From positions 1,469,001-1,533,000 of the forward strand of contig NZ_JAHRWL010000001.1 in NCBI RefSeq assembly GCF_019104745.1: DNA of 64,000 nt, read 5' to 3'. Below, piece after piece: positions 2,702 to 17,990 of this stretch; within the stretch, counting starts at the first letter, position 1, and each line of letters begins with the position of its first letter. The notes beneath the pieces were generated by a model. That model saw nothing but the letters and a program-made list of their open reading frames with translations. It ran no database searches and was not told the DNA's origin. Position numbers and translations under genes: made by a program. The DNA comes from Thalassococcus arenae. Lineage in GTDB: Bacteria > Pseudomonadota > Alphaproteobacteria > Rhodobacterales > Rhodobacteraceae.

Positions 2702-2868
2702 TCCACTCACTTCCTTTCCGGCTCTCCGGACATTTCTGTGCCGTACCTGTGGCGTGACGCCGCCCGTCTGTCTTGTGCTGCGTCGCGCCGCTGCGTCAAG
2801 GCATCTCGAGACAGGCTGCTCGCACGAGTGTTGCCATACCGTCAAGGATGGCTCAAATCAGGGCGGTA

Positions 2869-3399
2869 ATGCGGCGATTTCGCGGGGTAGGCGCCTTGCC
2901 TGTGGAAAACAACATATCGGCCAGCGAACCCGATTGGTCGCGCGAGACGGTTTCTCGCTTCTGGGATCCCGGAAAGAAACTCATCCGTGCGGTGCGCCGC
3001 TACCAGGCGGCGCGCGACGTCAAGGGGCCGCTTGGCTGGGTGACCCGCAAATACTGGGTGCTGAACCATCTTTGGTGGTCGACGATCTGCCAGACGGAAC
3101 TGCATCTGAACACCGTGGTCGGCGGCGGGCTGAGACTGACCCATCCAACCGGGATCATCATCCACCCGGATGCGCGGATCGGCGTGAATTGCATGATCTT
3201 TCACCAGGTGACGCTGGCCGGGCCCGTTGTGCTGGGTGGGCATGTCGATGTCGGCGCCGGCGCAAAGCTGATCGGGCCGCTGACGGTGGGCGACCACGCG
3301 GTTATCGGCGCCAACGCGGTCGTCACCGGGGATGTTCCGGCTGGTGCAACGGTTGCCGGCATTCCGGCGAAGGTGATCGCGCAGCACAGCATCGACTGA
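2869..3399 (+). CDS. Hexapeptide-repeat O-acetyltransferase (serine acetyltransferase/WcaB-like)
   Basis: A protein of about 176 residues made largely of left-handed beta-helix hexapeptide repeats. The segment LTHPTGIIIHPDARIGVNC followed by FHQVTLAG and a late IPAKVI matches the CysE/EpsC/WcaB acyl-CoA acetyltransferase fold. It lacks the long N-terminal helical domain of housekeeping CysE. With the polysaccharide neighbours, an exopolysaccharide acetyltransferase is more likely than cysteine synthesis. The start is uncertain: ATG at 2869 has a purine-rich AGGG upstream, ATG at 2848 is also possible, and the frame is open back to 2773. It is transcribed divergently from the acyltransferase gene. 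Confidence 0.78.
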   Translation: MRRFRGVGALPVENNISASEPDWSRETVSRFWDPGKKLIRAVRRYQAARDVKGPLGWVTRKYWVLNHLWWSTICQTELHLNTVVGGGLRLTHPTGIIIHPDARIGVNCMIFHQVTLAGPVVLGGHVDVGAGAKLIGPLTVGDHAVIGANAVVTGDVPAGATVAGIPAKVIAQHSID

Positions 3400-3409
3400 C
3401 CGGCAGCGT

Positions 3410-4705
3410 TCAGAAGAATTCCGGCGCCGGCCCTTCTGCGGATCGCACCCAGCGGTAGACCTCGGCGATCTGTTCCGCTTTGCGCGACCACAGGAACAAC
3501 GCGTCCACGCGATGCCGTGCGTCTTGGGCCAGCATCGGCAGCGCGCCGCGATCCTTGCAAAGCCGTTGCAGCGCATCGCCCAGATCGGCGACGATCTCGT
3601 CCCGGCCGCGGCATGGAACCTTGATCCCGGTTCCCGGAGTGACCAGTTCGCCAGGACCGGCATAGTCGACAACCAGAGGCACGACACCCAGGGCCATCGC
3701 CTCGAGCACCACGCCGCCACCGAATTCGCGGATCGACGGAAATGCGAGGATATGGCTGTTCGCGAGGATATCCTGAACCGCGCCGTGCGCTTGCCACCCG
3801 TGAAACGTCAGCCCCTTGTCGATCCGCAGAAATCGAGCCTGTATCTGCAGATCGGACCGGGCCGGGCCGTCACCGACGATGTCCAGCACCATGCGTCCGT
3901 CGCGCAACAGGGGCGCGGCAGCATCCAGCAGCATGTCGGCGCCCTTGTAGGGCACAAGCCGTCCGACGAAAGCGGCGCGCAGAGGACCGTCTTCAGGGGG
4001 ATCGGCGATGCGGTTGAAGCGACGCGGATCAATGCCGTTCTCGGGCAGATAGATCACCTTGTCGCGGAATCGGCGGGGGATTTCCGACGCGGTATGCCAG
4101 GAGCCGGCCAGGATCGCGGCGGCACCGCGCAGGGTCGCGCCCCGGCCGGGCAGCAACTTGTAGGCGCTTCGGACATAGCTCAGCCATTCCCTTTCGGCAC
4201 GGCGTTCGGCGTCGAAACCGGGTGGCCATGGCACGCCGCCGTTCAGCGGCCCCAGGACAAAGGGCACACCCGCCTTCGCACAGCGTGAGGCCAGCGCCGA
4301 CGGTATCGTCGGCGACAGCGGCGTGATCCGATGAACGATGTCGAATTCGCCCGCTTCGATCGCCGGTCCGAACCGTTTCCAGACCAGCCGTTCGAACCAG
4401 GGATAACCGAGCGCGTTCAGCGCCTGTACCATCGTCCAGCCCTTGCCTTCGCCCATCCGCAGCCTTTCGGCCAGGGCCCAGAGCGGGCGTGCCAAGGCTT
4501 CGGAATCGATGGCGGTGAAGTCGGTGCCTTCGTGAAGCCCCGCAGCGAGGATCGCGTCGCGGTTGCGGACCTGCGTGACCAGGTGCACGTCGGCCACGTC
4601 GCGCAGCGCCTGCGACAGCGACCAACCGATCAACGGAACGCTGACCCAGTCGGGGTTGGCGGCTTCGGCGATGACGAGAACGCGGGGTCTTTTCTGTCCG
4701 GTCAT
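3410..4705 (-). CDS. Glycosyltransferase family 4 (GT-B fold)
   Basis: A 431-residue cytoplasmic GT-B glycosyltransferase. The C-terminal half has the family 4 hallmarks: FVGRLVPYKGADMLLDA, a DIVGDGPARSDL segment, and the nucleotide-sugar loop EFGGGVVLEAMALGVVPLV with the two acidic EX7E residues. It should transfer a sugar from a nucleotide donor onto a growing polysaccharide or lipid-linked oligosaccharide. The ATG at 4705 lies only 4 bases after the stop of the O-antigen ligase-like gene, so the two form an operon. Donor and acceptor cannot be assigned. Confidence 0.88.
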   Translation of the reverse strand: MTGQKRPRVLVIAEAANPDWVSVPLIGWSLSQALRDVADVHLVTQVRNRDAILAAGLHEGTDFTAIDSEALARPLWALAERLRMGEGKGWTMVQALNALGYPWFERLVWKRFGPAIEAGEFDIVHRITPLSPTIPSALASRCAKAGVPFVLGPLNGGVPWPPGFDAERRAEREWLSYVRSAYKLLPGRGATLRGAAAILAGSWHTASEIPRRFRDKVIYLPENGIDPRRFNRIADPPEDGPLRAAFVGRLVPYKGADMLLDAAAPLLRDGRMVLDIVGDGPARSDLQIQARFLRIDKGLTFHGWQAHGAVQDILANSHILAFPSIREFGGGVVLEAMALGVVPLVVDYAGPGELVTPGTGIKVPCRGRDEIVADLGDALQRLCKDRGALPMLAQDARHRVDALFLWSRKAEQIAEVYRWVRSAEGPAPEFF

Positions 4706-4709
4706 GGGG

Positions 4710-6107
4710 TCACAGGATGGAGCGCCAGCGCATCGGCAGGGGCGCTGATCGCTTGAGTTCCAGTCTTTGCGCGCGGAGCTGTTCGGCATATCCGGTCAGC
4801 GCACCCGCCACCAGCCAGGTCAGCGGCGTCAGCGTCGCGTTCGGGATCATGTCGAAGATGTTGATCGCCAGCAGCAGCGAAATCGGCGCGATGTATGGCG
4901 ACACCGGCCGGTCCGTGCCCATGAGCGCTTCGCGCCACAACAACAGTATCGGAAAGACCAGCAGGCCGAACTCGGCCAGGAAGCCAACCCAACCGTAAAC
5001 GCCGATGGCGATGATCCAGCGCCCGTCCGTCACCGTTTCGATCGCGCCGGTGACAGGGTTCAGGATGTGGTTGCGTCCCCAGCTGCCCCAGCCGAAAACC
5101 GGTTTCATCGCGGCGCGGTTCAGCAGGATGTTTTCGTTGTTGAAACGGAATTCCAGCGATGCCGCGCGGTCCGCGTCGATCTGTTGTGCCGCGGCCAGCA
5201 GCTGGTCTTCGGGCACCAGCTGCGCGCCTTTCATCAAAGGATAGCCAACCGCGAGAAACCCGATCAACAACGCCACGTTGATCTGCATGAACCGCTTGAG
5301 GAACAGCACGCACGGCACCAACGCCACCGCGAAGATCAGCGCTCCGAGCGACTTGGTCAGGATCAGGATCACCGTCAGGTACACCGCCAGCATGAGACCC
5401 AGCATTCTGGGTTGCGCGCGATGGCGCCACAAGGCCCAGGCGGCGACGACGGCCGTCACCATGTAGAACGCGACCCACAGACCGTGATACAGGAACACCA
5501 CGGGGCGGTATCCGCCAAACCGAACGGATTGGCCGAAGTAATGCTGGAAATACCCGTAGATCCAGTTGTTCAGCTGCGGCGAAAGGCGGATTTCGATCAG
5601 CATGGGCAGCGAATAGGCCAGGCCGCCCCACATCAGCGCCTTGAGCAGCATTTCCTGTGATCCGCCGGACGCCAGGAACCGCCGCGCCATGAGGAACGGC
5701 ACCAGGTAAAGTGCCTGTTGCTGTACCAGCGCCGCGGCATCTTTCCAGGTCAGGCCCGGCAGGCCGATATCGCCGAAAAAGACCGGTTCCGTATTCGTGA
5801 TCACGGTCAGGATCGGCGAGAAGACGAAAACCAGGCACAGCAGTTTTCCCAACAGCGATGCTGGCAACAAGGGCCCTTTCTGCCCGTACATCCACAACGC
5901 GATGACAAAAGCGGTCAGCGCCGGGATGTTGTGTTTGCTCAGCGGTGCCAGAAGGGGGAAGTCGAACTGTGCCGGTGGTTCCGGCAGAAAAAGATAGCCG
6001 GCCAGCATCGACAGGATCAGCGCGCGATCCGCCGGGAAACGCAGGAACAACACCAGCGTCACGATCGGCCACAAGGCCAGAACCGTATAAGCCAAGGGGT
6101 TGGGCAT
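4710..6107 (-). CDS. O-antigen ligase/polymerase-like membrane protein
   Basis: A 465-residue, highly hydrophobic protein with about ten to twelve predicted membrane segments and a larger polar loop in the second half containing FGWGSWGRNHILNP. The layout and the late periplasmic loop resemble the Wzy/WaaL (O-antigen polymerase/ligase) family, but those families diverge strongly and no strict catalytic motif can be checked by eye. It probably polymerises or ligates surface polysaccharide in the inner membrane. It is the first gene of a leftward pair with the GT4 gene. Confidence 0.7.
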   Translation of the reverse strand: MPNPLAYTVLALWPIVTLVLFLRFPADRALILSMLAGYLFLPEPPAQFDFPLLAPLSKHNIPALTAFVIALWMYGQKGPLLPASLLGKLLCLVFVFSPILTVITNTEPVFFGDIGLPGLTWKDAAALVQQQALYLVPFLMARRFLASGGSQEMLLKALMWGGLAYSLPMLIEIRLSPQLNNWIYGYFQHYFGQSVRFGGYRPVVFLYHGLWVAFYMVTAVVAAWALWRHRAQPRMLGLMLAVYLTVILILTKSLGALIFAVALVPCVLFLKRFMQINVALLIGFLAVGYPLMKGAQLVPEDQLLAAAQQIDADRAASLEFRFNNENILLNRAAMKPVFGWGSWGRNHILNPVTGAIETVTDGRWIIAIGVYGWVGFLAEFGLLVFPILLLWREALMGTDRPVSPYIAPISLLLAINIFDMIPNATLTPLTWLVAGALTGYAEQLRAQRLELKRSAPLPMRWRSIL

Positions 6108-6347
6108 GGACGGGTTCGCGACTCCCGGAGCTTGGATGCGTCACAGGCCCCCCATGCCCGACGCAATGTTTCATCTAACAGATCGATGGTGCCTTGTCTC
6201 GGGGGTGCGGGAAAAATCCTTGCCGGCGCGCCTGGCTGGCCACATCTCGATTATTGAGACGTTTCGGTGCACGCGGTTGCAAAAAACCGGTCGCACCGAT
6301 CCGGGACAAACGCTAACTTGACCTCGAGTTGCCGGTTCGGAGGAGAC

Positions 6348-9170
6348 ATGGCGCATACCCAACCTGTCCTCGATCTGTCGCCGAAAGTGTCGGACGAGGT
6401 GCGCAAGACCACGTGTTACATGTGTGCCTGCCGGTGCGGCATCAACGTGCACATGAAGGACGGCAAGGTCGCCTATATCGAAGGCAACCGCGATCACCCG
6501 GTGAACAAGGGCGTTCTTTGCGCCAAGGGCAGCGCCGGGATCATGCAGCACAATGCGCCGTCGCGGCTGCGGGCGCCGCTTAAACGGGTCGGTCCGCGAG
6601 GGTCGGGCGAGTTCGAGGAGATCAGCTGGGACGAAGCGCTTGACCTGGCCGTCAGCTGGCTGAAACCGCTGCGCAAGGCTGCGCCGGAAAAGCTGGCCTT
6701 CTTTACCGGTCGGGACCAGTCGCAAAGTTTTACCAGCTTCTGGGCGCAGAATTTCGGCACGCCGAATTATGCCGCCCATGGTGGGTTCTGCTCTGTCAAC
6801 ATGGCGGCTGGCGGCATCTACACGATGGGTGGGGCGTTCTGGGAATTCGGCGCGCCCGATTGGGACCGCACCAGGTTGTTCATGATTTTCGGCGTGGCCG
6901 AGGATCATGACAGCAACCCGATCAAGATGGGGATCGGAAAGCTCAAGGCGCGGGGCGCCAAGGTGATCGGCGTCAACCCGATCCGGTCGGGCTACAACGC
7001 CGTTGCCGACGAATGGGTGGGCATAACGCCCGGCACCGACGGGCTGTTCATCCTGTCGCTGGTGCATTGCCTGATGAAGGCCGGCAAGATCGACCTCGAC
7101 TACCTCGCGCGCTGGACGAACGCGCCGGTGATGGTGAACGGTGACCCCAAGTCACCCGATTTCGGTCTGTTTCTGCGCGATGCCGAAGGCAAGCCGCAGG
7201 TGATGGACCGTGCGACGGGAAAGCTCGAGCCATTCGACAAGCCGGGCGTCAGGCCCGATCTGACGGGGCATTTCCGCAAGGCGGGGGTCACGCATCGATC
7301 GGTGATGCATCTGATGGCCGAACGCTACCTTGATCCGAAATACGCGCCCGAAGCTGTGGCCGACACCTGCGGTATCCCGGCCGAACGCATTCACGCCATT
7401 GCGGCAGACCTGGCCCGCGCGGCCTTCGACGAGGCGATCGAGATCGCCCAGCCCTGGACCGATTTCCGCGGCGAACGGCACGAGACGATGATCGGGCGCC
7501 CGGTCAGCTTTCACGCGATGCGCGGCATCTCGGCCCATTCCAACGGGTTCCAGACCTGCCGCGCGTTGCACCTGCTGCAGATCGTTCTGGGCGCGGTGGA
7601 ATGCCCCGGCGGGTTCCGCTTCAAGCCACCCTACCCAAAGCCGCCCGAGGCGCATCCCCGACCGCACAGCAAGGTCACGCCGGACGCGCCGCTTGACGGG
7701 CCGCATCTGGGGTTTGCGATGGGTCCCGAAGACCTGGCGCTCAAGGCCGATGGCAGCCCTGCCCGTATCGACAAGGCGTTTTCTTGGGAAAACCCGATGT
7801 CGTCGCACGGGCTGATGCATATGGTCATCGCCAATGCCCATGCCGGCGATCCCTACCGGATCGATACGCTGATGCTGTACATGGCGAACATGGCATGGAA
7901 TTCGTCGATGAACACATCCGGCGTCATGCGGATGCTGACCGACAAGGACGACAACGGCGACTATGTCATTCCGCGGATCATCTATTCCGACGCCTATTCG
8001 TCCGAGATGGTCGCCTATGCCGACCTGATCCTGCCCGACACCACCTATCTCGAACGGCACGATTGCATCTCGCTGCTGGACCGGCCGATCTGCGAACCCG
8101 AGGCTGCGGCGGACGCGATCCGCTGGCCGGTGGTCGAACCCGACCGCGACGTGCGCGGCTTTCAGTCTGTGCTGATCGACCTCGGCGCAAGGCTGGGCCT
8201 GCCGGGTTTCGTCAACGAGGATGGCTCGGCGAAATACGCCGACTATGCCGATTACATCATCAACCACGAACGCAAGCCCGGCATCGGCCCGCTGGCGGGT
8301 TGGCGGATGGGTGAAAAGGGCCTGGTATCGGGCCGCGGCGGGGTGAACGCGGCGCAGATCGACAGCTACATCAGCAATGGCGGATTTCACGTCGTGCACG
8401 TTCCGGACGAAGCCGCGTTCTTCAAGCCGTGGAACAAGGCCTACCAGGACTGGGCGGTGAGCATGGGCTTTTACGACAGCCCGCAGCCCTACATCTTCAA
8501 CCTGTATTCCGAGCCGATGCGCAAATTCCAGCGCGCCGCCGAAGGCCATGGCGACCGCCAGCCGCCCGAGCATCTGCGCGCCCGGGTCAAGGCGACGATG
8601 GACCCGCTGCCGGACTGGACCCCGCCGTTCAACGCCGCCGAGGCGGCAGAGTTCCCGGTGCATGCGCTGACCCAGCGGCCCATGGCGATGTATCATTCCT
8701 GGGGCACCCAGAACGCCTGGTTGCGGCAGATCCACGGCCATAACCCGCTTTATCTGCCGACCAAGTGGTGGGCCAGGCTGGGCCTGAAAGAAGGCGACTG
8801 GGTGCGCGTGACCTCGCCGCATGGTGAAATCACCGTTCCTGCCGCCCATATGGCCGCACTGAACGAAGATACCGTCTGGACATGGAACGCAATCGGCAAG
8901 CGCAAGGGCGCCTGGGCGCTGGACACCGACGCGCCCGAGGCGACCAAGGGTTTCCTGCTGAACCATCTGATCCACGAATTGCAGCCCGAAAAGGGAGACG
9001 GTCTGCGCTGGTCCAATTCCGACCCGATCACCGGGCAGGCGGCCTGGTTCGATCTGCGCGTGCGCCTGGAAAAGGCGCCGGCCCCGTCAGAAAGCCTGCC
9101 GGCCTTTCCGCCGATCAAGTCGCCGGTGGGTACAGGGCCGGATCAGCTACGCTGGAAGGTCGGGCAATGA
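6348..9170 (+). CDS. soeA: SoeA-like molybdopterin oxidoreductase (sulfite dehydrogenase catalytic subunit)
   Basis: A 940-residue DMSO-reductase-family molybdoenzyme. Cys23, Cys26, Cys30 and Cys58 (CYMCACRC, GVLCAKGS) can hold the N-terminal 4Fe-4S cluster. Cys148 in AAHGGFCSVNMAAGG is a candidate molybdenum ligand. No twin-arginine signal peptide precedes the cluster, so the enzyme should be cytoplasmic, as known for SoeABC, which oxidises sulfite to sulfate at the inner membrane. The start is fixed by GGAGGAG 4 bases before the ATG. The next genes encode a ferredoxin subunit and a DmsC-like anchor, giving the SoeABC gene order. The sulfite assignment rests on remembered SoeA similarity and on architecture; a related reductase remains possible. 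Confidence 0.78.
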   Translation: MAHTQPVLDLSPKVSDEVRKTTCYMCACRCGINVHMKDGKVAYIEGNRDHPVNKGVLCAKGSAGIMQHNAPSRLRAPLKRVGPRGSGEFEEISWDEALDLAVSWLKPLRKAAPEKLAFFTGRDQSQSFTSFWAQNFGTPNYAAHGGFCSVNMAAGGIYTMGGAFWEFGAPDWDRTRLFMIFGVAEDHDSNPIKMGIGKLKARGAKVIGVNPIRSGYNAVADEWVGITPGTDGLFILSLVHCLMKAGKIDLDYLARWTNAPVMVNGDPKSPDFGLFLRDAEGKPQVMDRATGKLEPFDKPGVRPDLTGHFRKAGVTHRSVMHLMAERYLDPKYAPEAVADTCGIPAERIHAIAADLARAAFDEAIEIAQPWTDFRGERHETMIGRPVSFHAMRGISAHSNGFQTCRALHLLQIVLGAVECPGGFRFKPPYPKPPEAHPRPHSKVTPDAPLDGPHLGFAMGPEDLALKADGSPARIDKAFSWENPMSSHGLMHMVIANAHAGDPYRIDTLMLYMANMAWNSSMNTSGVMRMLTDKDDNGDYVIPRIIYSDAYSSEMVAYADLILPDTTYLERHDCISLLDRPICEPEAAADAIRWPVVEPDRDVRGFQSVLIDLGARLGLPGFVNEDGSAKYADYADYIINHERKPGIGPLAGWRMGEKGLVSGRGGVNAAQIDSYISNGGFHVVHVPDEAAFFKPWNKAYQDWAVSMGFYDSPQPYIFNLYSEPMRKFQRAAEGHGDRQPPEHLRARVKATMDPLPDWTPPFNAAEAAEFPVHALTQRPMAMYHSWGTQNAWLRQIHGHNPLYLPTKWWARLGLKEGDWVRVTSPHGEITVPAAHMAALNEDTVWTWNAIGKRKGAWALDTDAPEATKGFLLNHLIHELQPEKGDGLRWSNSDPITGQAAWFDLRVRLEKAPAPSESLPAFPPIKSPVGTGPDQLRWKVGQ

Positions 9171-9394
9171 AACGGGGAATGAAGCTGACCGTCCTGGCCA
9201 TCGCGGCGTTTTTCCTGGCCGTCGCCGGGTCGTTCATCTGGTTCGTGTTGACCTGGGACCCCAATGAACGTCCCGCGGTCGGCGCGGTTTCGGTGCAGAC
9301 CCTTCATCTGGCTGAATTCTCGCCGGGGGCGCACAGCCAGTCCGCGCAAGCGCCGGGCCCCGGAACCCCGCAAGCCGACAGGATCGCCGCATGA
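9167..9394 (+). CDS. Small single-pass membrane protein in the soe operon
   Basis: A 75-residue protein with one N-terminal transmembrane helix (LTVLAIAAFFLAVAGSFIWF) preceded by lysine and arginine, then a polar Pro/Gln/Ala-rich tail that should face the periplasm. Its ATG overlaps the soeA stop (ATGA), and its stop overlaps the soeB ATG in the same way, so it is translated within the operon. I recognise no family. It could assist assembly or membrane attachment of the molybdoenzyme, but this is inference from position. Confidence 0.72.
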   Translation: MKRGMKLTVLAIAAFFLAVAGSFIWFVLTWDPNERPAVGAVSVQTLHLAEFSPGAHSQSAQAPGPGTPQADRIAA

Positions 9395-10197
9395 CCCAGC
9401 TTCCCGACCGCACCGATCGCAAGCTGGGGCTGGTGATCGACCTCGACACCTGCGTCGGGTGCCATGCCTGTGTTGTTTCCTGCAAGGGCTGGAACACCGA
9501 GAACTACGGTGCACCGCTGTCGGACCAGGACGCCTATGGCGGCGATCCGACGGGCACCTTCCTGAACCGCGTGCACAGCTATGAAGTGCAGCCCGAAGCC
9601 GGGCCTGCCCAGCTGATCCATTTCCCGAAATCCTGCCTGCATTGCGAGGACGCGCCCTGCGTGACCGTCTGCCCGACCGGTGCGAGTTACAAACGGGTCG
9701 AAGACGGGATCGTGCTGGTCAACGAGAGCGACTGCATCGGCTGCGGCTTGTGCGCCTGGGCGTGCCCATACGGCGCGCGCGAACTGGACCAGGCCGAGGG
9801 CGTGATGAAGAAATGCACGTTGTGTGTCGACCGCATCTACAACGAAAATCTGCCCGAGGAAGACCGCCAGCCGGCCTGTGTGCGCACTTGCCCGGCCGGT
9901 GCCCGGCATTTCGGCGACCTTGGCGACCCGGACAGCGCGGTCAGCCAGTTGGTGGCCGAGCGCGGGGGAATCGACCTGATGCCGGAACAGGGTACAAAAC
10001 CGGTCAACAAATACCTGCCGCCGCGGCCCAAGGATGGCTGGGTCGGCGAAGTCGACGTGCTGGCGCCGTTTCTCGAACCCGTGGCGCAAGAGGCGCGGGG
10101 ATTCCTGGGCTGGCTCGACAAGACGCTGGACCGCATTCCGGGAAGCGCTAGACGCGCCACGGACCAGGATGTTCGCAACGAAAGCGAGAAGCCCTGA
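9391..10197 (+). CDS. soeB: SoeB-like 4Fe-4S electron-transfer subunit
   Basis: A 268-residue protein with four ferredoxin-type cysteine clusters: CVGCHACVVSC (residues 21-31), CLHCEDAPCVTVCP, CIGCGLCAWACP, and CTLC paired with ACVRTCP. This is the DmsB/PsrB/SoeB pattern holding four 4Fe-4S clusters. It should pass electrons from the molybdenum subunit to the membrane anchor and quinone pool. Its start overlaps the small membrane ORF (ATGA) and its stop shares one base with the soeC start (TGATG), indicating tight translational coupling. Confidence 0.88.
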   Translation: MTQLPDRTDRKLGLVIDLDTCVGCHACVVSCKGWNTENYGAPLSDQDAYGGDPTGTFLNRVHSYEVQPEAGPAQLIHFPKSCLHCEDAPCVTVCPTGASYKRVEDGIVLVNESDCIGCGLCAWACPYGARELDQAEGVMKKCTLCVDRIYNENLPEEDRQPACVRTCPAGARHFGDLGDPDSAVSQLVAERGGIDLMPEQGTKPVNKYLPPRPKDGWVGEVDVLAPFLEPVAQEARGFLGWLDKTLDRIPGSARRATDQDVRNESEKP

Positions 10198-11069
10198 TGC
10201 ATCCGGCCGCCTCGATCATCGCGTTTACGACATTTTCGGGCCTGGGCCTGGGCCTGCTGTTCTGGCTGGGGGTCGATCCGACTCCGCCGACCGGCTGGAC
10301 GGCCTTCGCCTTTTTCGCCATCGGATTCGCGCTGGCCGTCGGCGGTCTGGTGTCGTCGACATTTCACCTGGGCCGGCCGGAACGCGCGATCAAGGCGTTC
10401 ACGCAATGGCAGACAAGCTGGCTTTCGCGCGAGGCCTGGGCGGCGACCGCGACCCTGATCCTGATGGGCCTTTACGGCGCCGGGCTGGTGTTCTTCGGCA
10501 CGGCCTTGCAGCCGTTGGGCTGGCTGGGCGCGGCCGGTGCGCTTGCCACGGTATACACCACGTCGATGATCTATGCGCAGTTGCGCACCGTGCCGCGCTG
10601 GTTCCACTGGTCGACCTCGGCGCTGTTTCTTGCCCTGTCGCTGGCGGGCGGCGCGCTGCTATCGGGACGGGTGACCGTGGCGCTGGTGCTGTTGCTTGCG
10701 GCGGGCGGGTTGCAATTGTGGTGGTGGCAATCCGGCGACAGGCGGTTCGGCGCCAGCGGCACCGATCTGGGCACCGCCACGGGGCTAGGGGATCGCGGCA
10801 CCGTCCGGTCGTTCGAGCCGCCCCACACCGGCACCAATTACCTGATGCGCGAGATGGTCCACATGGTGGGCCGCAAGCACGCGCAAAAGCTGCGACTGAT
10901 CGCGCTGGCGCTGATGATGGTCCTGCCGGTCTTCCTGCTGATCCTGCCGTTCGGTCACGTGCTTGCCGCCTTCGCGGTTCTCAGCCATATCGCGGGGGTG
11001 CTTGTCGCCCGCTGGCTGTTCTTCGCCGAGGCCGAGCATGTCGTGGGGCTGTATTACGGGAAACGCTGA
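10197..11069 (+). CDS. soeC: SoeC-like membrane anchor (DmsC family)
   Basis: A 290-residue integral membrane protein with roughly eight helices, beginning MHPAASIIAFTTFSGLGLG as in the DmsC family of quinone-interacting anchors. A conserved-looking stretch near residue 50 (FHLGRPERAIKAF) and a late TNYLMREMVHMVGRKHAQKL loop fit the same family. It should bind the SoeAB dimer at the cytoplasmic face and deliver electrons to quinone. It follows soeB with a one-base overlap and precedes the SnoaL-like gene by three bases. Confidence 0.83.
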   Translation: MHPAASIIAFTTFSGLGLGLLFWLGVDPTPPTGWTAFAFFAIGFALAVGGLVSSTFHLGRPERAIKAFTQWQTSWLSREAWAATATLILMGLYGAGLVFFGTALQPLGWLGAAGALATVYTTSMIYAQLRTVPRWFHWSTSALFLALSLAGGALLSGRVTVALVLLLAAGGLQLWWWQSGDRRFGASGTDLGTATGLGDRGTVRSFEPPHTGTNYLMREMVHMVGRKHAQKLRLIALALMMVLPVFLLILPFGHVLAAFAVLSHIAGVLVARWLFFAEAEHVVGLYYGKR

Positions 11070-11072
11070 GCC

Positions 11073-12056
11073 ATGTCTTTTCTGCCGGGTTTCGACAATC
11101 GCTGGAACGACCCGGCCGATTACATCCTGGGTATCACTTTCGACATCTGGGAAGGTCGCGAGGTCGCCCGACTGACCGACTATTACGCCGACGATCTGAT
11201 CGTGCGTTCGCCCGCTTCGGTGGTGAAGGGCAATCGCGGCGTGATCGCTGCGACGCAGGCCACGCTGGCCGAATTCCCCGATCGCGAATTGCTGGGAGAG
11301 GACGTGATCTGGTGCGCGACGCCGGGTGATGCGTTTCTGTCCTCGCACCGGCTCTATTGCACCGCCACCCATGACGGCGCAGGAGTCTATGGTGCGCCCA
11401 CGGGCAAGCGGCTGGAATACCGCATCCTGGCGGATTGCTGGTGCCAGGCGAACCAGGTGCGCGACGAATGGCTGGTGCGCGATCAGGGCGCCATCGTTCG
11501 GCAACTGGGCCTGAACGTGGTCGACTGGACCCGCGACCTGATCGCACGCGAGGGCGGGGCCGAGGCCTGTGTCAAGCCGCTGACGCCCGAAACCGATCTT
11601 CCCGGTCCCTATGACGGGCACGGCAACGACGACGAATGGGGCCACACGCTGGCCGATCTGGTCAGCCGAATGATGGCGGCAGAGCTGTCGGTGATCGGCA
11701 AGCATTACGACCGCGCGGCCGAGCTGTTCTATCCTGGCCATGTCATGGGCAACGGGCGGCGTGATGCAGACCGGTTCTGGAACGGGCTGCGCGCGGCCTT
11801 TCCGTCGGCGCGCTTCTCGGTCGATCACATGATGGGCCAGCAGGATCCGCTGACCGCGCCGCGCGCCGCGCTGCGCTGGTCGCTGACCGGGCGGCATGAC
11901 GGTTGGGGAATGTTCGGCAAGCCGACGGGCGCCCAGGTGCATGTGATGGGGATCACCCATGCCGAATTCGGGCCGGACGGGCTGCGCCGGGAATGGACGC
12001 TGATCGACGAAACCGCGATTTGGAAGCAGATCCTGCTTGTAACTGGCGCGGCCTGA
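11073..12056 (+). CDS. Two-domain SnoaL-like (NTF2-fold) protein
   Basis: A 327-residue soluble protein formed by two NTF2/SnoaL-like halves. The first covers about residues 20-150 (GITFDIWEGREVARLTDYYA, then TGKRLEYRILADCW). The second covers about residues 190-325 (HYDRAAELFYPGHVMGNG, ending TLIDETAIWKQIL). SnoaL-fold proteins include polyketide cyclases, isomerases, lyases and hydratases, so the fold alone does not give a reaction. It starts 3 bases after soeC and is presumably in the same transcript. A second two-domain SnoaL-like protein and a single-domain one lie within 7 kb, suggesting a shared pathway. Confidence 0.78.
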   Translation: MSFLPGFDNRWNDPADYILGITFDIWEGREVARLTDYYADDLIVRSPASVVKGNRGVIAATQATLAEFPDRELLGEDVIWCATPGDAFLSSHRLYCTATHDGAGVYGAPTGKRLEYRILADCWCQANQVRDEWLVRDQGAIVRQLGLNVVDWTRDLIAREGGAEACVKPLTPETDLPGPYDGHGNDDEWGHTLADLVSRMMAAELSVIGKHYDRAAELFYPGHVMGNGRRDADRFWNGLRAAFPSARFSVDHMMGQQDPLTAPRAALRWSLTGRHDGWGMFGKPTGAQVHVMGITHAEFGPDGLRREWTLIDETAIWKQILLVTGAA

Positions 12057-12060
12057 TCCG

Positions 12061-13047
12061 TCAGCCGCGTGTCGAGCTGCGGACGATCAGCTCGACCGGG
12101 ATCTCGATCGTGCCCGCGGGATCGGTTTCGCCCAGCAGCGCGGCGACGGTCGCGTCCACCATGGCGGCGCTGTCCTGCCGGATCGTTGTCAGGTCATAGC
12201 CCGCCCAGGACGCTTCTGGAACGTCGTCGAAGCCGATCACCGCCACATCCTGTGGCACGCGCAGACCAAGTTCGCTGCGCAGCACGTCCATGACCGCAAA
12301 GGCCATGTGATCGTTGCCCACGAATACCGCATCGGGCGGGTCGGGCCGGTCGAACATCTGCCGCGTTGCAGTGCAGGCCTGATCGCGGTGGAAATTGCCG
12401 ACGCCGCGGGCGTACAGGTCCAGACCGGCGGCACGCAGCGTTTCGACGAACCCGGCTTCGCGTTCGATCTGGGTCGATGCCCCTTCCCACCCGGCGACAT
12501 AGCCGATCCGGCGGCGTCCAAGTGAAAGCAGGTGTTCAGCCGCCAACTGCCCGCCCCGGCGGTTTTCCGACACGACGGCCAATTCGTTGTCCACCCCCTG
12601 GCGGCGATTGAACAGCACCACCGGCACGCCCGACGCGCGACATCGCTGCGCAAGATCGGAACTGAGCGCGACCGAAGCCAGCACCAGCCCGTCGACCTGG
12701 TAGGCCAGGATGTCCTCGACGATCTCGTCCACCGTGCGATCCACGTTCGTGGCCAAAAAGACCAGGACGTGGTAGCCCTCGCTGTCCAGTGCCGCTGACA
12801 GTTGCTGCAAGGCCTGAGGGTAGAACTGGTTGTCCAGATAGCCGACCACCAGCCCGATGATGCGCGACTGCCCGGTCAGCATGGCGCGCGCCAGCACGTT
12901 GGGGCGGTAGCCCAGTTCGGTCGCGGCCTCGCGCACCTTGTCGGCGGTGGTCGGCGCCACGGATGCTCCGGGTGTGAAGGTGCGACTGACGGCGGACCGG
13001 CTGACGCCGGCGCGGCGCGCGACGTCGAGGGCGGTCACCCGGCTCAT
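12061..13047 (-). CDS. LacI-family transcriptional regulator
   Basis: A 328-residue regulator. Residues 3-24 form the LacI helix-turn-helix (VTALDVARRAGVSRSAVSRT), followed by the hinge region YRPNVLARAM. The rest is a periplasmic-binding-protein-like effector domain, with DGLVLASVAL, HLLSLGRRRIGYVAG, FVGNDHMAFAVMDVL and VIGFDDVPEASW at the usual positions. It is the last gene of the leftward ABC-transporter operon; its ATG overlaps the stop of the SnoaL-like gene (ATGA). A LacI-type palindrome lies in the promoter of the same operon (17975-17990), so autoregulation by a sugar-like inducer is likely. Confidence 0.93.
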   Translation of the reverse strand: MSRVTALDVARRAGVSRSAVSRTFTPGASVAPTTADKVREAATELGYRPNVLARAMLTGQSRIIGLVVGYLDNQFYPQALQQLSAALDSEGYHVLVFLATNVDRTVDEIVEDILAYQVDGLVLASVALSSDLAQRCRASGVPVVLFNRRQGVDNELAVVSENRRGGQLAAEHLLSLGRRRIGYVAGWEGASTQIEREAGFVETLRAAGLDLYARGVGNFHRDQACTATRQMFDRPDPPDAVFVGNDHMAFAVMDVLRSELGLRVPQDVAVIGFDDVPEASWAGYDLTTIRQDSAAMVDATVAALLGETDPAGTIEIPVELIVRSSTRG

Positions 13048-13568
13048 GGTGCGGGCGGCGTTTTTTCGCCACGGTCGAAGGCTTCCCAGCCTTCGCCGTT
13101 GAAGACGTCGACGCCCAGTTGGGCCAGCACATGCGGAAAATCGACCATAACCCAGTTGTCCGTGATCTTGCCGTTCTCGACCTTCCAGAAATCCATGTAG
13201 CGAATTTCCACGCGTTTGCCTGTAGGCGCAATGCCCATGAAGGGCCCACCGTGCGTGGCCTCCTGCCGGCCGAAGGCAGCGGCCCATTCGCCCATGTAAA
13301 GCCGCGCCTCGTCGATGCAGACCTTGTCGTGGAACGCCGCCTGAAAGGGCTTTTGCCAGTTTTCCTGGAATTCCCGCAAACCGTTTTTCGTGCCACAGCC
13401 GGCATTGCCCATCCAGCGAAAGCTTTGGGCGAAGAACGCGCCGATATCTCCGATGCGATGGTCGTTCAGACCATCAACCATACCTTCGATCACCGCGCGG
13501 GTCTCGGCGGTTTTTGACAGGTCGGTATCGCGGGTCAGCACTGCCTGTTCGGGGCGGGCACCTTTCAT
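13044..13568 (-). CDS. SnoaL-like (NTF2-fold) protein, ester-cyclase type
   Basis: A 174-residue soluble protein with a single NTF2/SnoaL fold: helical start ETRAVIEGMVDGLNDHRIGD, a core FFAQSFRWMGNAGCG, and the strand IAPTGKRVEIRYMDFWKVENGKITDNW typical of SnoaL ester-cyclase relatives. It is cotranscribed between the permease genes and the LacI gene, so it probably acts on the imported compound or a derivative. The start has an AGGAGACC stretch upstream of the ATG. The reaction is unknown. Confidence 0.83.
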   Translation of the reverse strand: MKGARPEQAVLTRDTDLSKTAETRAVIEGMVDGLNDHRIGDIGAFFAQSFRWMGNAGCGTKNGLREFQENWQKPFQAAFHDKVCIDEARLYMGEWAAAFGRQEATHGGPFMGIAPTGKRVEIRYMDFWKVENGKITDNWVMVDFPHVLAQLGVDVFNGEGWEAFDRGEKTPPAP

Positions 13569-13630
13569 GACGGTCTCCTGTGGGGGTGCGACCGGTTCGG
13601 AGGCTTGGCCGGGAAACGACTGGCCATCGC

Positions 13631-14509
13631 CTAGCCCTTCACGGCGCCGGCGGTCAGACCCGAGACGATCTGCCTCTGGAAGAACAGGACCAGCACGAAC
13701 AAGGGCGCCGTGGCGGACACGACGGCGGCGACGGCGAACATCACGTTGCCTTCGACCTGCGTCGTGCCAAGGAAACTGGCGATCTTGGGCACCATCGTCT
13801 GGTTTTCCTGGCTGAGCAGCGTCGCCGTCACGGTGAAATCGTTATAGGCCAGCAGAAAGCTGAACAGCCCGGTCGTGATAACGCCGGGCCACATCACCGG
13901 GATGATGACGTGACGAAAGGCCTGGAACCGTGTGCACCCGTCGACCATGGCGCTTTCGTCCAGATCCTTGGGGATGTTCAGAAAGAACGAATGCAACATC
14001 CACAGCGTGAAGGGCTGGTTGATCGCCACCATGACGATGATCGCCGTGGGCAGGTGCCCCCAAAGATTCCACTCGAAGAACGGCAGCAGATAGCCCGAGA
14101 CCAGCGTGATATGCGGCATGGCGCGAAAGATCAGCGCCGCCATGAGGATGTAGAACGCATAGCGAAAGCCGGAGCGCGCAAGCGCATAGCCACCAAGGGT
14201 TCCGAAGGTCAGCGAGATCACCACGACGCTGACCACGACGATCAGTGTGTTGAGCGCGGCGCGCCAGAATTCCTGTTCGACAAAGGCACCCCAGTAGCCG
14301 CGCCCGGTAAAGGCGCTGCCGGTTTCGATCTGCGTGCGGATGCCTTGCAGGGCATAGGTCCAGTCGGCTCTTGAAAAGAAATCGCCCTGCACCTTGAAGC
14401 TGCCCCACAAGGTCCAGACGAACGGAAAACCGGCGCAGATCAGCCAGACGGTGACGAAGGCCGTGGAAATCACGACCAGCGAGGGCGAGCGTTTCGTCTG
14501 GGCGGCCAT
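13631..14509 (-). CDS. Sugar-type ABC transporter permease (MalG family)
   Basis: A 292-residue permease with six hydrophobic helices. The cytoplasmic EAA loop that docks the ATPase reads DESAMVDGCTRFQAFRHVIIP, with the conserved glycine, at about two thirds of the length. This is the MalG-type half of a CUT1 carbohydrate importer. Its start lies one base after the stop of the MalF-type gene, so the two permeases are coexpressed. Confidence 0.92.
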   Translation of the reverse strand: MAAQTKRSPSLVVISTAFVTVWLICAGFPFVWTLWGSFKVQGDFFSRADWTYALQGIRTQIETGSAFTGRGYWGAFVEQEFWRAALNTLIVVVSVVVISLTFGTLGGYALARSGFRYAFYILMAALIFRAMPHITLVSGYLLPFFEWNLWGHLPTAIIVMVAINQPFTLWMLHSFFLNIPKDLDESAMVDGCTRFQAFRHVIIPVMWPGVITTGLFSFLLAYNDFTVTATLLSQENQTMVPKIASFLGTTQVEGNVMFAVAAVVSATAPLFVLVLFFQRQIVSGLTAGAVKG

Positions 14510-14510
14510 G

Positions 14511-15539
14511 TCACACGCTCTTTCGATTGAAGTCGCGCCAAGTGCGGATCAGCACCGGTGTCAGCAGGATCGCAACGCCGAGGATCGTCATCACCGATGT
14601 GGCGGCGGCCGAACCGAAGAGTTTGTTCTCCTGCGCGAGGTCGTTGTAGATGATCCAGCTGAGCGAGGTGGCGTTGGCCTCGGCCGAGAAGCCGACGATC
14701 GGCTCGAAGACGCGGAAATTGTCCATCAGCTGGATCAGCGTGATGAAAACCGTCAGCGGCATGAGGTGCGGCAGGGTGATGTGCCAGGTCCGCTGCCAGC
14801 GTGTGGCACCGTCGATCATCGCCGCTTCGGTCGCATCCTCGGGCACGGTTTGCAACCCGGCGTAAAAGACGATGAAGGCGAACGGCGCCGAGTGCCAGAC
14901 ACCGTAGACGAACAGCGTGATCCAGGTCAGCGTCTGCGATGCCTTGAGCGACAGGTTGGGATCGCCGACCAGGTTCTGCAGACCGGCGCCCAGGATACCG
15001 CGTGCATCGATCATCCAGAACAGGATCAGCGACCCGACCAGCGGCGTGACCATCATCGGCAGCAGCGACACGAAGATCGTCGGACCCTTGAGAATGCGCG
15101 GCAGGGAATTGACACCAAGCGCGATCATGAATCCCAGGATCAGCACCAGCGGCGTCACGATGAACGTGTAGGACAGGGTAAAGGCAAGTGCGGCGTAGAA
15201 AGGCAGGTTCATCAGCGCGCCCAGAAACTCGCCGATCCCGTCGCTGCTGCGCCAGGCCTGGGCGACTTCGCTGGTGGCCAGGTGCGAGCGGTTGACATAG
15301 GTGCCCAACCCGTTGAAGCGGCCCAGGGGGGCGGCTTCTTTCAGCTTGGCCGTTGCCTCGGCGTCGACCTGGGTTTCCGTGGTGCAGCCGAAAGGGCCGC
15401 AGTTTTCCACCTCGATCAGCACCTGTTCGTGTTCGACATGCAGCGACTGGATGACCACCGACACGATGGGCAACGCGATGAACAGCACCATCGCCGTCAG
15501 TGACGGCAGGATGAACCAAAAGAAGGTGCGGTGTTTCAT
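14511..15539 (-). CDS. Sugar-type ABC transporter permease (MalF family)
   Basis: A 342-residue permease. The first helix begins soon after the start (FFWFILPSLTAMVLFIALP), a periplasmic loop carrying two cysteines follows (NCGPFGCTTE), and the EAA loop reads DATEAAMIDGATRWQRTWHI. It is the MalF-type partner of the next gene. The ATG at 15539 was chosen because the first helix follows directly. A strong hairpin (15565-15589) separates it from the upstream solute-binding-protein gene. Confidence 0.92.
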   Translation of the reverse strand: MKHRTFFWFILPSLTAMVLFIALPIVSVVIQSLHVEHEQVLIEVENCGPFGCTTETQVDAEATAKLKEAAPLGRFNGLGTYVNRSHLATSEVAQAWRSSDGIGEFLGALMNLPFYAALAFTLSYTFIVTPLVLILGFMIALGVNSLPRILKGPTIFVSLLPMMVTPLVGSLILFWMIDARGILGAGLQNLVGDPNLSLKASQTLTWITLFVYGVWHSAPFAFIVFYAGLQTVPEDATEAAMIDGATRWQRTWHITLPHLMPLTVFITLIQLMDNFRVFEPIVGFSAEANATSLSWIIYNDLAQENKLFGSAAATSVMTILGVAILLTPVLIRTWRDFNRKSV

Positions 15540-15564
15540 CGATCCGGGTCGCTTGCGGGGAATG

Positions 15565-15589
15565 GCCGGGCGCCTGGCGGGCGCCCGGC
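15565..15589 (-). terminator. Intercistronic GC hairpin after the solute-binding-protein gene
   Basis: A perfect 10-base-pair inverted repeat (GCCGGGCGCC, 5-base loop, mirrored arm) lies 11 bases past the stop of the solute-binding-protein gene and 25 bases before the permease start. There is no T-run, so full termination is not expected. Such hairpins in ABC operons commonly stabilise the binding-protein mRNA or attenuate downstream genes, giving more binding protein than permease. Confidence 0.7.
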
Positions 15590-15600
15590 ACGGTTGTCGT

Positions 15601-16833
15601 TTACTGCAGGAAACCCTGTTCCTTGGCCGCGGTGGTGTAGGCCGCTTCGACATCGGCCAGTGCCTGTTCGGCGCTTTCCTTGCCCTGCAGGAAATCGGCC
15701 AGTTCGTCGCCGAGCGCGGTGTGCAGCGCGCCCATGAAGGGCACCATCGGGTAGGGTGCAGCACCGGCTTGCGCGGTGGCGGCCACGCCGGCCGAGGCCG
15801 GGCCGGGTTCGTAGCCGTCGATCAGCCAGACGGCGGCGTCGTTGTTGGCCTTGACCGTCTCGGTCGACGCGCCCTTCATCAAAGCGATGAAGGTCGCTTC
15901 GGCGTCTTCATCGGACACGTTGGTGGAAATGGTGAGACCGTCCCACCACAGCGTCGAGGCCGGGCGGGTGCCGCCGCCCCATGTGGGCGCCGCGGCCAGA
16001 ACGGTGTTGGACGTGATCTCGTCCGTCGACCCTTCGGCGTCCAGGATCGCCGCGCCGCGCGATCCCCACAGCGTTGCCAGCGCCAGGTTGCCCGCTTCCC
16101 ATTCTGCCTGGGTCGCGTTGGAATCGTAGGTCAGGAAATCGGGGTTGGAAAACTCGACCAGCGCCTTGAGCATCTCCAGCGTCTTGACGCCGTTCTCGTT
16201 GTTGATGGCGACCTCGGCGGTGCCGGGTTTGAAGAAATCGGCGCCCGTGCCCATGTACATGTTCACGAATTCCTCGCCCAGGTTCCATCCGGCCTTGGTG
16301 TTCAACGCGAACGGATATTCCATGATCCCGGCATCGCGGATCGCCTGCGCGGTCTCGAGCACCTCTTCATAGGTAGTGGGCACCGGCTTGCCGACCTGTT
16401 CGAGGATGTCGCTGCGGGCGTACAGGTGCTGCGCATTGGCCATGAACGCCACCGCCATCACCTTGCCGTCGATGGTGATCAACTGGCTCTTGTTCAGCTG
16501 CTGCCCGTGTTTGGCCACCAGATCGTCCAGCGGCCGCACCAGACCGTCATTCATCAGCGTGACCAGGGATGAATTCGCCACGATGACCGAGCTGTATTCC
16601 GCAGGGTTCGGCGTCAGCGCTGCGACCATCAGGTCCTTGTGATCCTTGTTGTGGTTCTTGTTGAAGCTCGCGGCCTCGCCGGCACAGGTTTCGGCCGCAT
16701 TGACCACGGCGTGAAGCGCCGGGAAATCGTTGGCCAGAATCGAAATGTTGCCGCCGGAAATGCCGCAATCGGCCATGGCCGCTCCACCCGTCAGGGCAAA
16801 GGCGCCGGCGATGGCTAAGGTTCTGATGGTCAT
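15601..16833 (-). CDS. ABC transporter solute-binding protein (family 1, carbohydrate type)
   Basis: A 410-residue exported protein. The first 22 residues are a Sec signal peptide (TIRTLAIAGAFALTGGAAMA) followed by a mature start at Asp. The mature protein has family 1 extracellular-binding features, including a central FMANAQHLYARSDILEQVG and a C-terminal helical lobe. It should capture the substrate in the periplasm for the MalF/MalG-type permeases. The ligand is unknown. Only 59 bases separate it from the ATPase gene upstream. Confidence 0.9.
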   Translation of the reverse strand: MTIRTLAIAGAFALTGGAAMADCGISGGNISILANDFPALHAVVNAAETCAGEAASFNKNHNKDHKDLMVAALTPNPAEYSSVIVANSSLVTLMNDGLVRPLDDLVAKHGQQLNKSQLITIDGKVMAVAFMANAQHLYARSDILEQVGKPVPTTYEEVLETAQAIRDAGIMEYPFALNTKAGWNLGEEFVNMYMGTGADFFKPGTAEVAINNENGVKTLEMLKALVEFSNPDFLTYDSNATQAEWEAGNLALATLWGSRGAAILDAEGSTDEITSNTVLAAAPTWGGGTRPASTLWWDGLTISTNVSDEDAEATFIALMKGASTETVKANNDAAVWLIDGYEPGPASAGVAATAQAGAAPYPMVPFMGALHTALGDELADFLQGKESAEQALADVEAAYTTAAKEQGFLQ

Positions 16834-16892
16834 GGTCTTGAGTCTCCCTGGTTGTTATTGCGTCGTTGCCGACGCCTTTCTTGTCTTCGGGG

Positions 16893-17942
16893 CTATGCCC
16901 CGATGCGTGCCCCGGTCTTTCTGTCGAACAGGTGGCAAATCTCGGAAGGAACGGCGATCGAGACCGGTTCGTCGATCTCGATGCGGAAATCCTTGTGTGC
17001 CTTGACGCTGACCAGTGCGCCGCCGATGCGGACGCTGATCATCGACGCGTCGCCGAGCAGTTCCATCGTGTAGACCGGCGCGGTGATCTGGCCGCCGCTT
17101 TCGACGACCTGCGCGTCCTCGGCGCGAAAGCCCAGCGTGACCGGCCCGTTGGCACCGGTCAGGCTGGCGATTTCCGTCCGGGCACAGCGAAAGGTGCCGT
17201 CCTGGATTTCACCATCGATCAGGTTCATCGCCGGGTTGCCGATGAAGCTGGCGACAAAGGTGTTGGCCGGCCGGTCGTAGATCTCGGTCGGGCTGCCGAC
17301 CTGCTGGATCACGCCCTTTTCCATCACCACAACCCGGTCGGCCAGCGTCATCGCCTCGATCTGGTCGTGGGTGACGTAGACGGTGGTCACCTTGAGTTCA
17401 TGGCTGAGGTTCTTGATCTGCGCCCGCGTCGACACACGCAGCTTGGCGTCCAGGTTCGACAGCGGTTCGTCCATCAGAAAGGCGTTGGGTTCGCGCACGA
17501 TGGCGCGGGCCAGGGCCACGCGCTGGCGTTGGCCGCCCGACAATTCCGCGGGCTTGCGGTGCAGGAACGGCTCCAGCTCGACCATCTCGGCGGCGCGCAT
17601 CACGCGGTCCTTGTGGGTGGCCGGGTCGATCTTGCGCACCTTCAGCGGAAAGCGGATGTTCTCGAACACGTTCATGTTCGGGTACAGCCCGTAGGACTGG
17701 AACACCATCGAGATATCGCGGTCCTTGGGTTCCAGATCGTTGACCCGTTTGCCGTCGATCAGGATGTCGCCCTCGGTCGCGGTTTCCAGCCCGGCGATCA
17801 TCCGCATCGTCGTGGTCTTGCCGCAGCCCGACGGCCCCAGCAGCACCAGGAATTCGCGGTCGGCAATCGTCAGGTCGAACTTGTCGACACCCACGAAATT
17901 GCCCCAGCGTTTGGACAGGTTGCGCAGCTGGATTTCGGCCAT
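16893..17942 (-). CDS. ABC transporter ATP-binding protein (MalK/UgpC type)
   Basis: A 349-residue ATPase with Walker A GPSGCGKTTT, Q-loop MVFQSYGLYPNM, signature LSGGQRQRVALARA, Walker B AFLMDEPLSNLD and switch histidine VYVTHDQIEAM. The extra C-terminal 110 residues form the regulatory TOBE/OB domain of MalK/UgpC proteins. It energises the importer encoded downstream and is the first gene of the operon. The ATG at 17942 is favoured by the conserved start AEIQLRNLSKRWG; the longer frame adds nothing recognisable. Confidence 0.93.
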   Translation of the reverse strand: MAEIQLRNLSKRWGNFVGVDKFDLTIADREFLVLLGPSGCGKTTTMRMIAGLETATEGDILIDGKRVNDLEPKDRDISMVFQSYGLYPNMNVFENIRFPLKVRKIDPATHKDRVMRAAEMVELEPFLHRKPAELSGGQRQRVALARAIVREPNAFLMDEPLSNLDAKLRVSTRAQIKNLSHELKVTTVYVTHDQIEAMTLADRVVVMEKGVIQQVGSPTEIYDRPANTFVASFIGNPAMNLIDGEIQDGTFRCARTEIASLTGANGPVTLGFRAEDAQVVESGGQITAPVYTMELLGDASMISVRIGGALVSVKAHKDFRIEIDEPVSIAVPSEICHLFDRKTGARIGA

Positions 17943-17974
17943 GCATCCCCCTTCGGAACCGGCCTGGCCCGGTA

Positions 17975-17990
17975 TTGCACACGTTTGCAA
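17975..17990. promoter_or_regulatory. LacI-type operator palindrome
   Basis: TTGCACACGTTTGCAA is a 16-base near-perfect palindrome (14 of 16 bases symmetric) centred on CG, the form expected for a LacI/GalR-family operator. It lies 33 bases upstream of the ATPase start and 68 bases upstream of the divergent SnoaL-like gene, so one repressor could control both directions. The likely ligand is the LacI protein encoded at the end of the leftward operon. Confidence 0.68.

Follow-up and report, generated by a model that had tools for sequence, protein, structure and literature searches.

A SnoaL-like fourth gene at the end of a predicted SoeABC sulfite dehydrogenase operon of Thalassococcus arenae, and the predicted LacI-type regulon beside it

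Does a SnoaL-like gene lying three bases behind a sulfite dehydrogenase operon belong to that operon, and does the carbohydrate-type importer encoded next to it bring in the compound that releases the sulfite? These questions are raised by positions 6348–12056 of a 64,000-nucleotide stretch of the Thalassococcus arenae genome (hereafter the window), in which soeA, a small open reading frame (ORF), soeB, soeC and a gene for a two-domain SnoaL-like protein, named SnA, follow one another and are succeeded by a block of LacI, SnoaL-like and ATP-binding cassette (ABC) transporter genes. From gene order, protein families, recurrence, lineage and operator sequence, we conclude that 6348–12056 is probably a sulfite-oxidation operon with one extra enzyme, and that the LacI/ABC/SnoaL block is a second, often co-located module.

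The soe operon and its fourth gene

The operon comprises the following features:
6348–9170, plus strand: soeA, a molybdopterin oxidoreductase with a 4Fe-4S domain (Pfam), predicted sulfite dehydrogenase subunit.
9167–9394, plus strand: small ORF of 75 residues with a single hydrophobic segment by eye.
9391–10197, plus strand: soeB, a 4Fe-4S dicluster protein (Pfam), electron-transfer subunit.
10197–11069, plus strand: soeC, a DmsC-type membrane anchor (Pfam).
11073–12056, plus strand: SnA, with two SnoaL (PF07366) stretches (Pfam), immediately 3' of soeC.

The packing of these genes, as given in the preliminary description, is exact at the level of ORFs and translations: soeA overlaps the small ORF by 4 bases, the small ORF overlaps soeB by 4, soeB overlaps soeC by 1, and 3 bases separate soeC from SnA. 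A scan of 6000–13700 returned two promoter-like sites (1.0 expected) and three terminator-like sites (5.5 expected). At least 12 of 394 family genomes, the window's genome included, have SnA directly 3' of soeC and in the same orientation, a lower bound obtained by comparing the places of SnA and SoeC in these same genomes. The other 11 loci (L094, L102, L129 and L181–L188) were confirmed on DNA and, together with L219 and L265, have soeC-SnA gaps of −32 to +3 bases, narrowing to −4 to +3 except in L184. Three of the 12 loci (L094, L102 and L187) carry SnA with neither LacI nor importer genes beside it, and L188 ends at a contig end. SnA also follows xsc-pta-tauE in three genomes (L189, which is the contig of the Cognatishimia sp. 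MH4019 locus L217; L215; and L216); in the L189 genome, soeC is on a different contig.

An SnA match is present in 168 of the 394 family genomes. A tree was built from 51 SnA proteins, copies below about 40% identity or about 850 bases being excluded. A branch supported at 95/93 has on the same side 11 of the 12 copies linked to soe and, with them, the xsc-linked copy of G162. The soe genes are found in 30 of 34 SnA-positive and 35 of 56 SnA-negative family genomes (Fisher P 0.008, kinship uncorrected; G018, G042 and G077, with matches of merely ~30%, were counted as negative). The recurrence backs the assignment of the SnoaL-like gene to the soe operon made in the preliminary description, and gene order and lineage indicate that the link is real and sulfur-associated, and not a chance neighborhood. 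Within the limited literature collection searched, no paper described this link or contained both SnoaL and soeC, and combinations of HisD, SnoaL, LacI and xsc gave nothing on this cluster. An "ester cyclase" match (PMC11423573) was discarded, as the available part of that paper concerned chlorophyll enzymes.

SnA scores 76.7 bits against the Pfam SnoaL model (cut-off 28.4), and its AlphaFold model, based on a 38-sequence alignment, is a tandem pair of SnoaL barrels with a pLDDT of 95.5. Its fold matches include AclR, IdmH, SnoaL2, KSI and limonene-epoxide-hydrolase folds; the comparison rows listed are SnoaL/KSI/NTF2-like folds, and other families are possible. Both domains share the fold of SnoaL polyketide cyclases, SnoaL2, IdmH and KSI (Z scores of 16.2 with AclR and 14.5 with SnoaL, 1sjw), whereas SnA differs from these proteins by its tandem two-domain architecture, its identity of at most ~25% to the listed structures and its own conserved set of His, Asp, Glu and Arg residues. 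No polyketide genes were noticed in the gene lists read, although no search was aimed at such genes. Residues invariant in the alignment include Asp70, Arg71, Glu76, Asp77, His92, Arg93, His100, Asp121, Asp131, Glu132, Arg136, Asp137, His252, His275, His296 and Glu307. Because this set is invariant, it suggests a working acid-base enzyme, while the fold alone leaves the reaction undefined.

The SoeABC assignment of the preliminary description gains support from subunit make-up, from the synteny of the homologues with xsc, pta or tauE and from the fact that no other molybdoenzyme model scores above its cut-off. The subunits have the composition and order of SoeABC, namely a molybdopterin/4Fe-4S subunit A, a 4Fe-4S ferredoxin subunit B and a DmsC/NrfD-type anchor C. 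Full-length SoeA matches in relatives are 58–81% identical; at E ≤ 1e-100, SoeA is found in 73 of 147 genomes searched, our own included, and at E ≤ 1e-40 SoeC is matched in 283 of 394 family genomes. The four further SoeA matches in the T. arenae genome are merely 26–28% identical over part of the length. In a loose tally, 31 of 80 soe loci (L120, L131 and L142, in which the gene caller found no soeA, being excluded) have Xsc, Pta or TauE encoded by one of the first three genes upstream on the same strand, and 20 of 83 soe stretches encode a protein more than 55% identical to Xsc. Thirteen of the loci in these two counts and in the SoeA and SnA trees were chosen for linkage or closeness, which biases the frequencies. 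Family models above cut-off confirm Xsc and Pta in L189, Xsc in L083, Pta in L094 and TauE in three loci.

In the available text of PMC4334477, the soeC-soeB-soeA-pta genes of Ruegeria pomeroyi correspond to SPO3557–3560 and tauR to SPO3562. The predicted T. arenae enzyme resembles R. pomeroyi SoeABC (SPO3559–3557) in its three subunits, their A-B-C order, the DmsC-type anchor and the proximity of relatives' homologues to xsc, pta or tauE; it differs by the small ORF between soeA and soeB, by the SnoaL-like gene directly 3' of soeC and by its upstream neighborhood, where surface-polysaccharide-like genes (by eye) stand instead of xsc, pta or tauE, xsc lying ~490 kb away. We take SPO3561 to be xsc. 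The accessible part of PMC5320631 places bisC, dmsC and hybA in the TauR regulons of some Rhodobacterales and proposes for them an electron-acceptor role for taurine dehydrogenase; in our own reading, which differs from that proposal, these three genes fit soeABC. No match to a TauR half-site was found upstream of soeA, and its matches in the window are at chance level. A single Mo-co_dimer protein is encoded in the genome; by eye, its start is Tat-like and a cytochrome-like gene follows. This pair presumably represents SoxCD. SoeABC is the sole candidate found in the genome for a cytoplasmic sulfite dehydrogenase, and in sequence it looks like an ordinary enzyme of the roseobacter type. An NrfD_2 family search of the T. 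arenae genome was uninformative, with no match anywhere.

The small ORF at 9167–9394 has no Pfam or NCBIfam match. Its counterpart was detected by tblastn (E < 0.02) in 5 of 70 soe loci and is also labelled in L191, L193 and L219. A small ORF with a single hydrophobic segment recurs between soeA and soeB in L075, L083, L087, L093, L111, L191, L193 and L219; the gene caller also produces spurious ORFs at this place and sometimes misplaces starts (e.g. L184, L189 and L217). Directly 5' of soeA, window positions 620–6107 hold the surface-polysaccharide-like genes (acyltransferase, transferase, glycosyltransferase and polymerase-like, by eye), at a position occupied by tauE, pta or xsc in many relatives.

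The predicted LacI regulon and its second locus

The LacI/SnoaL/ABC block (12061–19011) comes next after SnA. Its features, and the operator-like site upstream of soeA, are as follows:
12061–13047, minus strand: LacI-family regulator (family models).
13044–13568, minus strand: SnB, a single-domain SnoaL-like protein (Pfam).
13631–14509, minus strand: PermB, an ABC permease, kept in related clusters; the Ruegeria conchae counterpart is a "carbohydrate ABC transporter permease".
14511–15539, minus strand: PermA, an ABC permease, conserved in related clusters.
15601–16833, minus strand: extracellular solute-binding protein, SBP_bac_1 (Pfam).
16893–17942, minus strand: ABC ATPase of UgpC/MalK type (Pfam and NCBIfam).
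17975–17990, plus strand: predicted LacI-type operator TTGCACACGTTTGCAA, between the ATPase and SnC genes.
18058–19011, plus strand: SnC, a two-domain SnoaL-like protein (family models).
6267–6282, plus strand: degenerate LacI-operator-like site (11 of 14 positions), 65 bp 5' of soeA.

In relatives, the usual SnA cluster is composed of an ABC importer, SnB, a HisD-like dehydrogenase, a second two-domain SnoaL protein, a short-chain dehydrogenase/reductase (SDR) and LacI, and further holds genes for a bicupin and for MetE-like, alpha/beta hydrolase and RraA-like proteins. T. arenae has this cluster in two parts. The importer, LacI, SnB and SnC lie in the window, and a second locus (L145, same contig, ~183–192 kb) carries HisD-like, SDR, SnoaL, cupin, MetE-like and hydrolase genes with a second SnA; an RraA-like gene was not seen there. 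SnA, the solute-binding protein and the bicupin, compared with solved structures, yielded weak, generic matches only; those of the solute-binding protein were sugar-binding proteins, with SmoF third. The block resembles carbohydrate ABC importers of the UgpC/MalK type that have a LacI regulator, in its binding protein, two permeases, ATPase and palindromic LacI-type operator, and differs from them in being set among SnoaL-like proteins.

The two loci are connected by the 16-mer TTGCACACGTTTGCAA, which occurs exactly three times in 3,706,450 bases (a reversed-pattern control, 0): in the window, 5' of the HisD-like gene and 5' of the SDR gene at the second locus. Matches at 11 or more of 14 positions were found in relatives upstream of SnC (6/6 stretches), the ATPase (8/11), the binding protein (6/20) and the HisD-like gene (3/5), and in 0.6% of shuffled stretches, the shuffles preserving single-base composition alone; the counts are partly circular, since the consensus was derived from the same stretches that it scored, and one intergenic stretch often counts for both the ATPase and SnC. 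The motif is mostly absent upstream of the bicupin (0/12), SnE (0/3), SnB (2/9) and separate LacI stretches (1/9). The site at 6267 is one of two in the 64-kb window that reach 11 of 14 positions (mononucleotide-shuffle P 0.005). Judged by the three exact copies of the 16-mer, the LacI/ABC/SnoaL block is a predicted regulon separate from the soe operon, sharing one putative operator with the second locus. Neither this operator nor SnoaL is mentioned in the available parts of a LacI-regulon paper (PMC4052901) and a paper on 2,3-dihydroxypropane-1-sulfonate (DHPS; PMC11131964).

The HisD-like enzyme of the second locus has a DHPS dehydrogenase as its nearest solved relative (388 bits; histidinol dehydrogenase, 252 bits), and the Lys of its GDK motif is kept in 25 of 26 copies. 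In DHPS dehydrogenases, a GRY[AS]H motif carries the sulfonate-contacting His126, according to the accessible text of PMC11382572. The copies printed by the motif scan have GKFPM (25/26) or GKFPL (1/26) instead, so that the enzyme would be without His126, and the HpsN identity raised by the PDB match was rejected on this ground. Thus, the HisD-like enzyme shares with the DHPS 3-dehydrogenase HpsN its fold family, its nearest solved relative and the GDK motif, but not the GRY[AS]H motif, and an HpsN of the GRYSH type is encoded elsewhere in the same genome. By motif, the GKFPM proteins represent a third HisD-type subfamily (L145 12430–13755, contig C1 ~190 kb), neither histidinol dehydrogenase nor HpsN. 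Relatives at E ≤ 1e-120 occur in 127 plasmid records; their annotation, where the rows seen give one, is "hisD" or "histidinol dehydrogenase". In four plasmid regions opened they are paired with an SDR and varied transporters.

Other observations concern importers and operators of this kind. In our genome, the perfect palindrome TTGCAACCGGTTGCAA, possibly the site of another LacI-type regulator, occurs twice within 5 kb (contig C2, 241102 and 245678; L207 and L208). A Vibrio pelagius plasmid (L180) carries the same importer type with four "ester cyclase" (SnoaL) genes, near sarcosine oxidase genes, with HisD and SDR genes absent from the 29 kb shown. L183, L185 and L129 have a second carbohydrate-type ABC system beyond the ABC/SnoaL block, accompanied in L183 by an IclR-like gene (by eye). 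Farther along the window, two adjacent trypsin-like serine protease genes (by eye) lie at 30744–32287 on the minus strand.

Sulfite sources and competing explanations

The T. arenae genome encodes Xsc (928 bits), as part of an xsc-ackA pair ~490 kb from the soe genes, an HpsN (774 bits to 8wwe) and an HpsO (403 bits to 8wwf), both entries being solved DHPS dehydrogenases. The beta subunit of sulfopyruvate decarboxylase (comE) scores above its cut-off and the alpha subunit (comD) 0.5 bit below. By these matches, sulfite can be supplied in this genome by a separate route through hpsNO-comDE and xsc. The hpsN-hpsO-ADH-UspA-comDE-LldD-like cluster (L268 9444–15120, contig C1 ~637–643 kb; ADH, alcohol-dehydrogenase-like; UspA-like by eye) stands beside a LacI-like gene, and in the 20 kb read around it inspection by eye revealed no genes for a TRAP transporter.

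A substrate that links the two modules was proposed in the preliminary description, namely a sulfonated, sugar-like compound that is taken in by the importer and degraded by the LacI regulon, SoeABC oxidizing the sulfite set free. LacI, with or without SnB and ABC genes, recurs behind soeABC-SnA (L181–L186, L265 and L214, the last from Marivita hallyeonensis DSM 29431 with the order soe-SnA-LacI-SnB), the SnA/LacI/ABC block also stands behind xsc-pta-tauE in the three genomes named above, SnA and soe co-occur, and the HisD-like enzyme with its retained Lys is closer to DHPS dehydrogenase than to histidinol dehydrogenase. Because the block recurs beside both soe and xsc-pta-tauE, a sulfonate as importer cargo is possible but unproven. 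This account is nevertheless rather unlikely, given the missing His126 and the genomic contexts. The HisD-like/SDR pair also has TRAP transporters, lactonase genes or an "aldolase/citrate lyase family" gene as neighbors, and the genes scanned at the two loci (10 proteins in the second-locus scan, one of them from L157) included none that was recognised as a known desulfonating enzyme. Four family genomes carry SnA without soe, and 75 of the 82 SnA loci in one tally lack soe, xsc and tauE; this tally leaves out separately fetched soe-linked or near-soe stretches and loci without a labelled SnA (some of them A+T-rich with almost no genes called, e.g. L233 and L244), and counts some genomes twice. 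A HisD-like or MetE-like gene is present in 67 of these 75 fetched loci. Moreover, since a sulfite source of known type exists in the genome, the sulfonate import is unneeded to explain SoeABC.

The reading that we favor, a sulfite-oxidation operon with an extra enzyme beside a second module, also has observations weighing against it. The majority of the soe operons examined lack SnA. The twelfth soe-linked SnA (G058) pairs with the unlinked G063, and the basal copies just across the branch (G063, G228 and G081) are away from sulfur genes. On a SoeA tree of 80 rows the SnA link is scattered, with 11 changes, of which at least 8 are forced, and it clusters no better than labels shuffled at random, 218 of 500 shuffled sets giving as low a count; either an old partner was lost many times or it was gained repeatedly. 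Sites with 11 or more of 14 positions upstream of soeA are not commoner in linked (10) than in unlinked (67) genomes (P 0.12; two linked loci with less than 60 bases of upstream sequence were dropped), and a convincing regulatory site tying soeA to the LacI regulon was not seen.

It is improbable that the modules are unrelated, the SnoaL/LacI/ABC island having been inserted into an old soeABC-DUF1523 neighborhood and kept by descent with no functional tie. In relatives (L191, L192, L194, L195, L079 and L101), soeC is directly followed by the DUF1523 gene, often with its neighbors, and L094 and L102 have SnA alone between the two. The DUF1523 gene and its neighbors resume at 19132 in the window, beyond the island, which therefore seems to have entered between SnA and DUF1523. 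The importer regulon also possesses an operator and a partner locus of its own. Against a mere insertion, 12 genomes of different genus codes have SnA on the same strand as soeC and only a few bases from it, three of these loci lack an adjoining LacI or importer, and the soe-linked SnA forms a separate lineage that also follows xsc-pta-tauE. Finally, SoeA is very improbably another molybdoenzyme of the PsrA/PhsA branch, such as a thiosulfate or polysulfide reductase: its best named models are indeed PhsA/PsrA-like and it matches the "thiosulfate reductase" 2vpw in the PDB, but no NCBIfam molybdoenzyme model exceeds its cut-off (PhsA, the best, reaches 191 bits of 694), no Tat leader peptide was seen by eye at its start, homologues 77–79% identical lie directly behind xsc and pta (L077, L078, L082, L086, L091 and L097), pta adjoins soeABC in R. 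pomeroyi as described above, and an Azospirillum plasmid carries soeABC, a small gene and then xsc, its SoeA homologue being 60% identical.

Proposed roles and significance

For the operon-plus-module reading, the following course may be envisaged. SoeABC would oxidize toxic cytoplasmic sulfite and pass the electrons to the membrane via SoeC, the sulfite coming mainly from Xsc (sulfoacetaldehyde acetyltransferase), which can be fed by the DHPS route of hpsNO and comDE. SnA represents a SnoaL lineage tied to sulfite and sulfonate operons (soeABC or xsc-pta-tauE) and, by analogy with SnoaL/KSI folds, most likely performs acid-base chemistry, such as an aldol, isomerase or hydrolase reaction, on some small sulfonate-breakdown intermediate. 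LacI is predicted to control, via the common operator, the importer and the HisD-like, SDR, SnoaL, cupin, MetE-like and hydrolase genes of the second locus; because importer and second locus share one operator, this module would serve the uptake and oxidation of a single organic substrate.

More speculatively, and doubtfully at present, the soe- or xsc-linked SnA could be an unrecognised enzyme of sulfonate breakdown, and the LacI/ABC/SnoaL regulon a new route for an undescribed marine organosulfonate; SnA may then, for instance, be a lyase freeing sulfite from an aldehyde-bisulfite adduct, or may open an imported sulfonate to sulfoacetaldehyde.

Between phytoplankton and roseobacters, carbon and sulfur are exchanged to an important extent in the form of organosulfonates, among them taurine and DHPS. 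The kind of sulfite dehydrogenase described here is known; beside it stand a recurrent SnoaL-like fourth gene and a separate predicted LacI regulon. Through the operator, the importer and the dispersed HisD-like, SDR, cupin, MetE-like and hydrolase genes become a single regulon open to testing; in the plasmid records seen, genes of this set carry the annotations "histidinol dehydrogenase" and "ester cyclase". The recurrence of a fourth gene at the end of the soe operon in several genera, or behind xsc-pta-tauE, suggests a missing, undescribed step in organosulfur breakdown.

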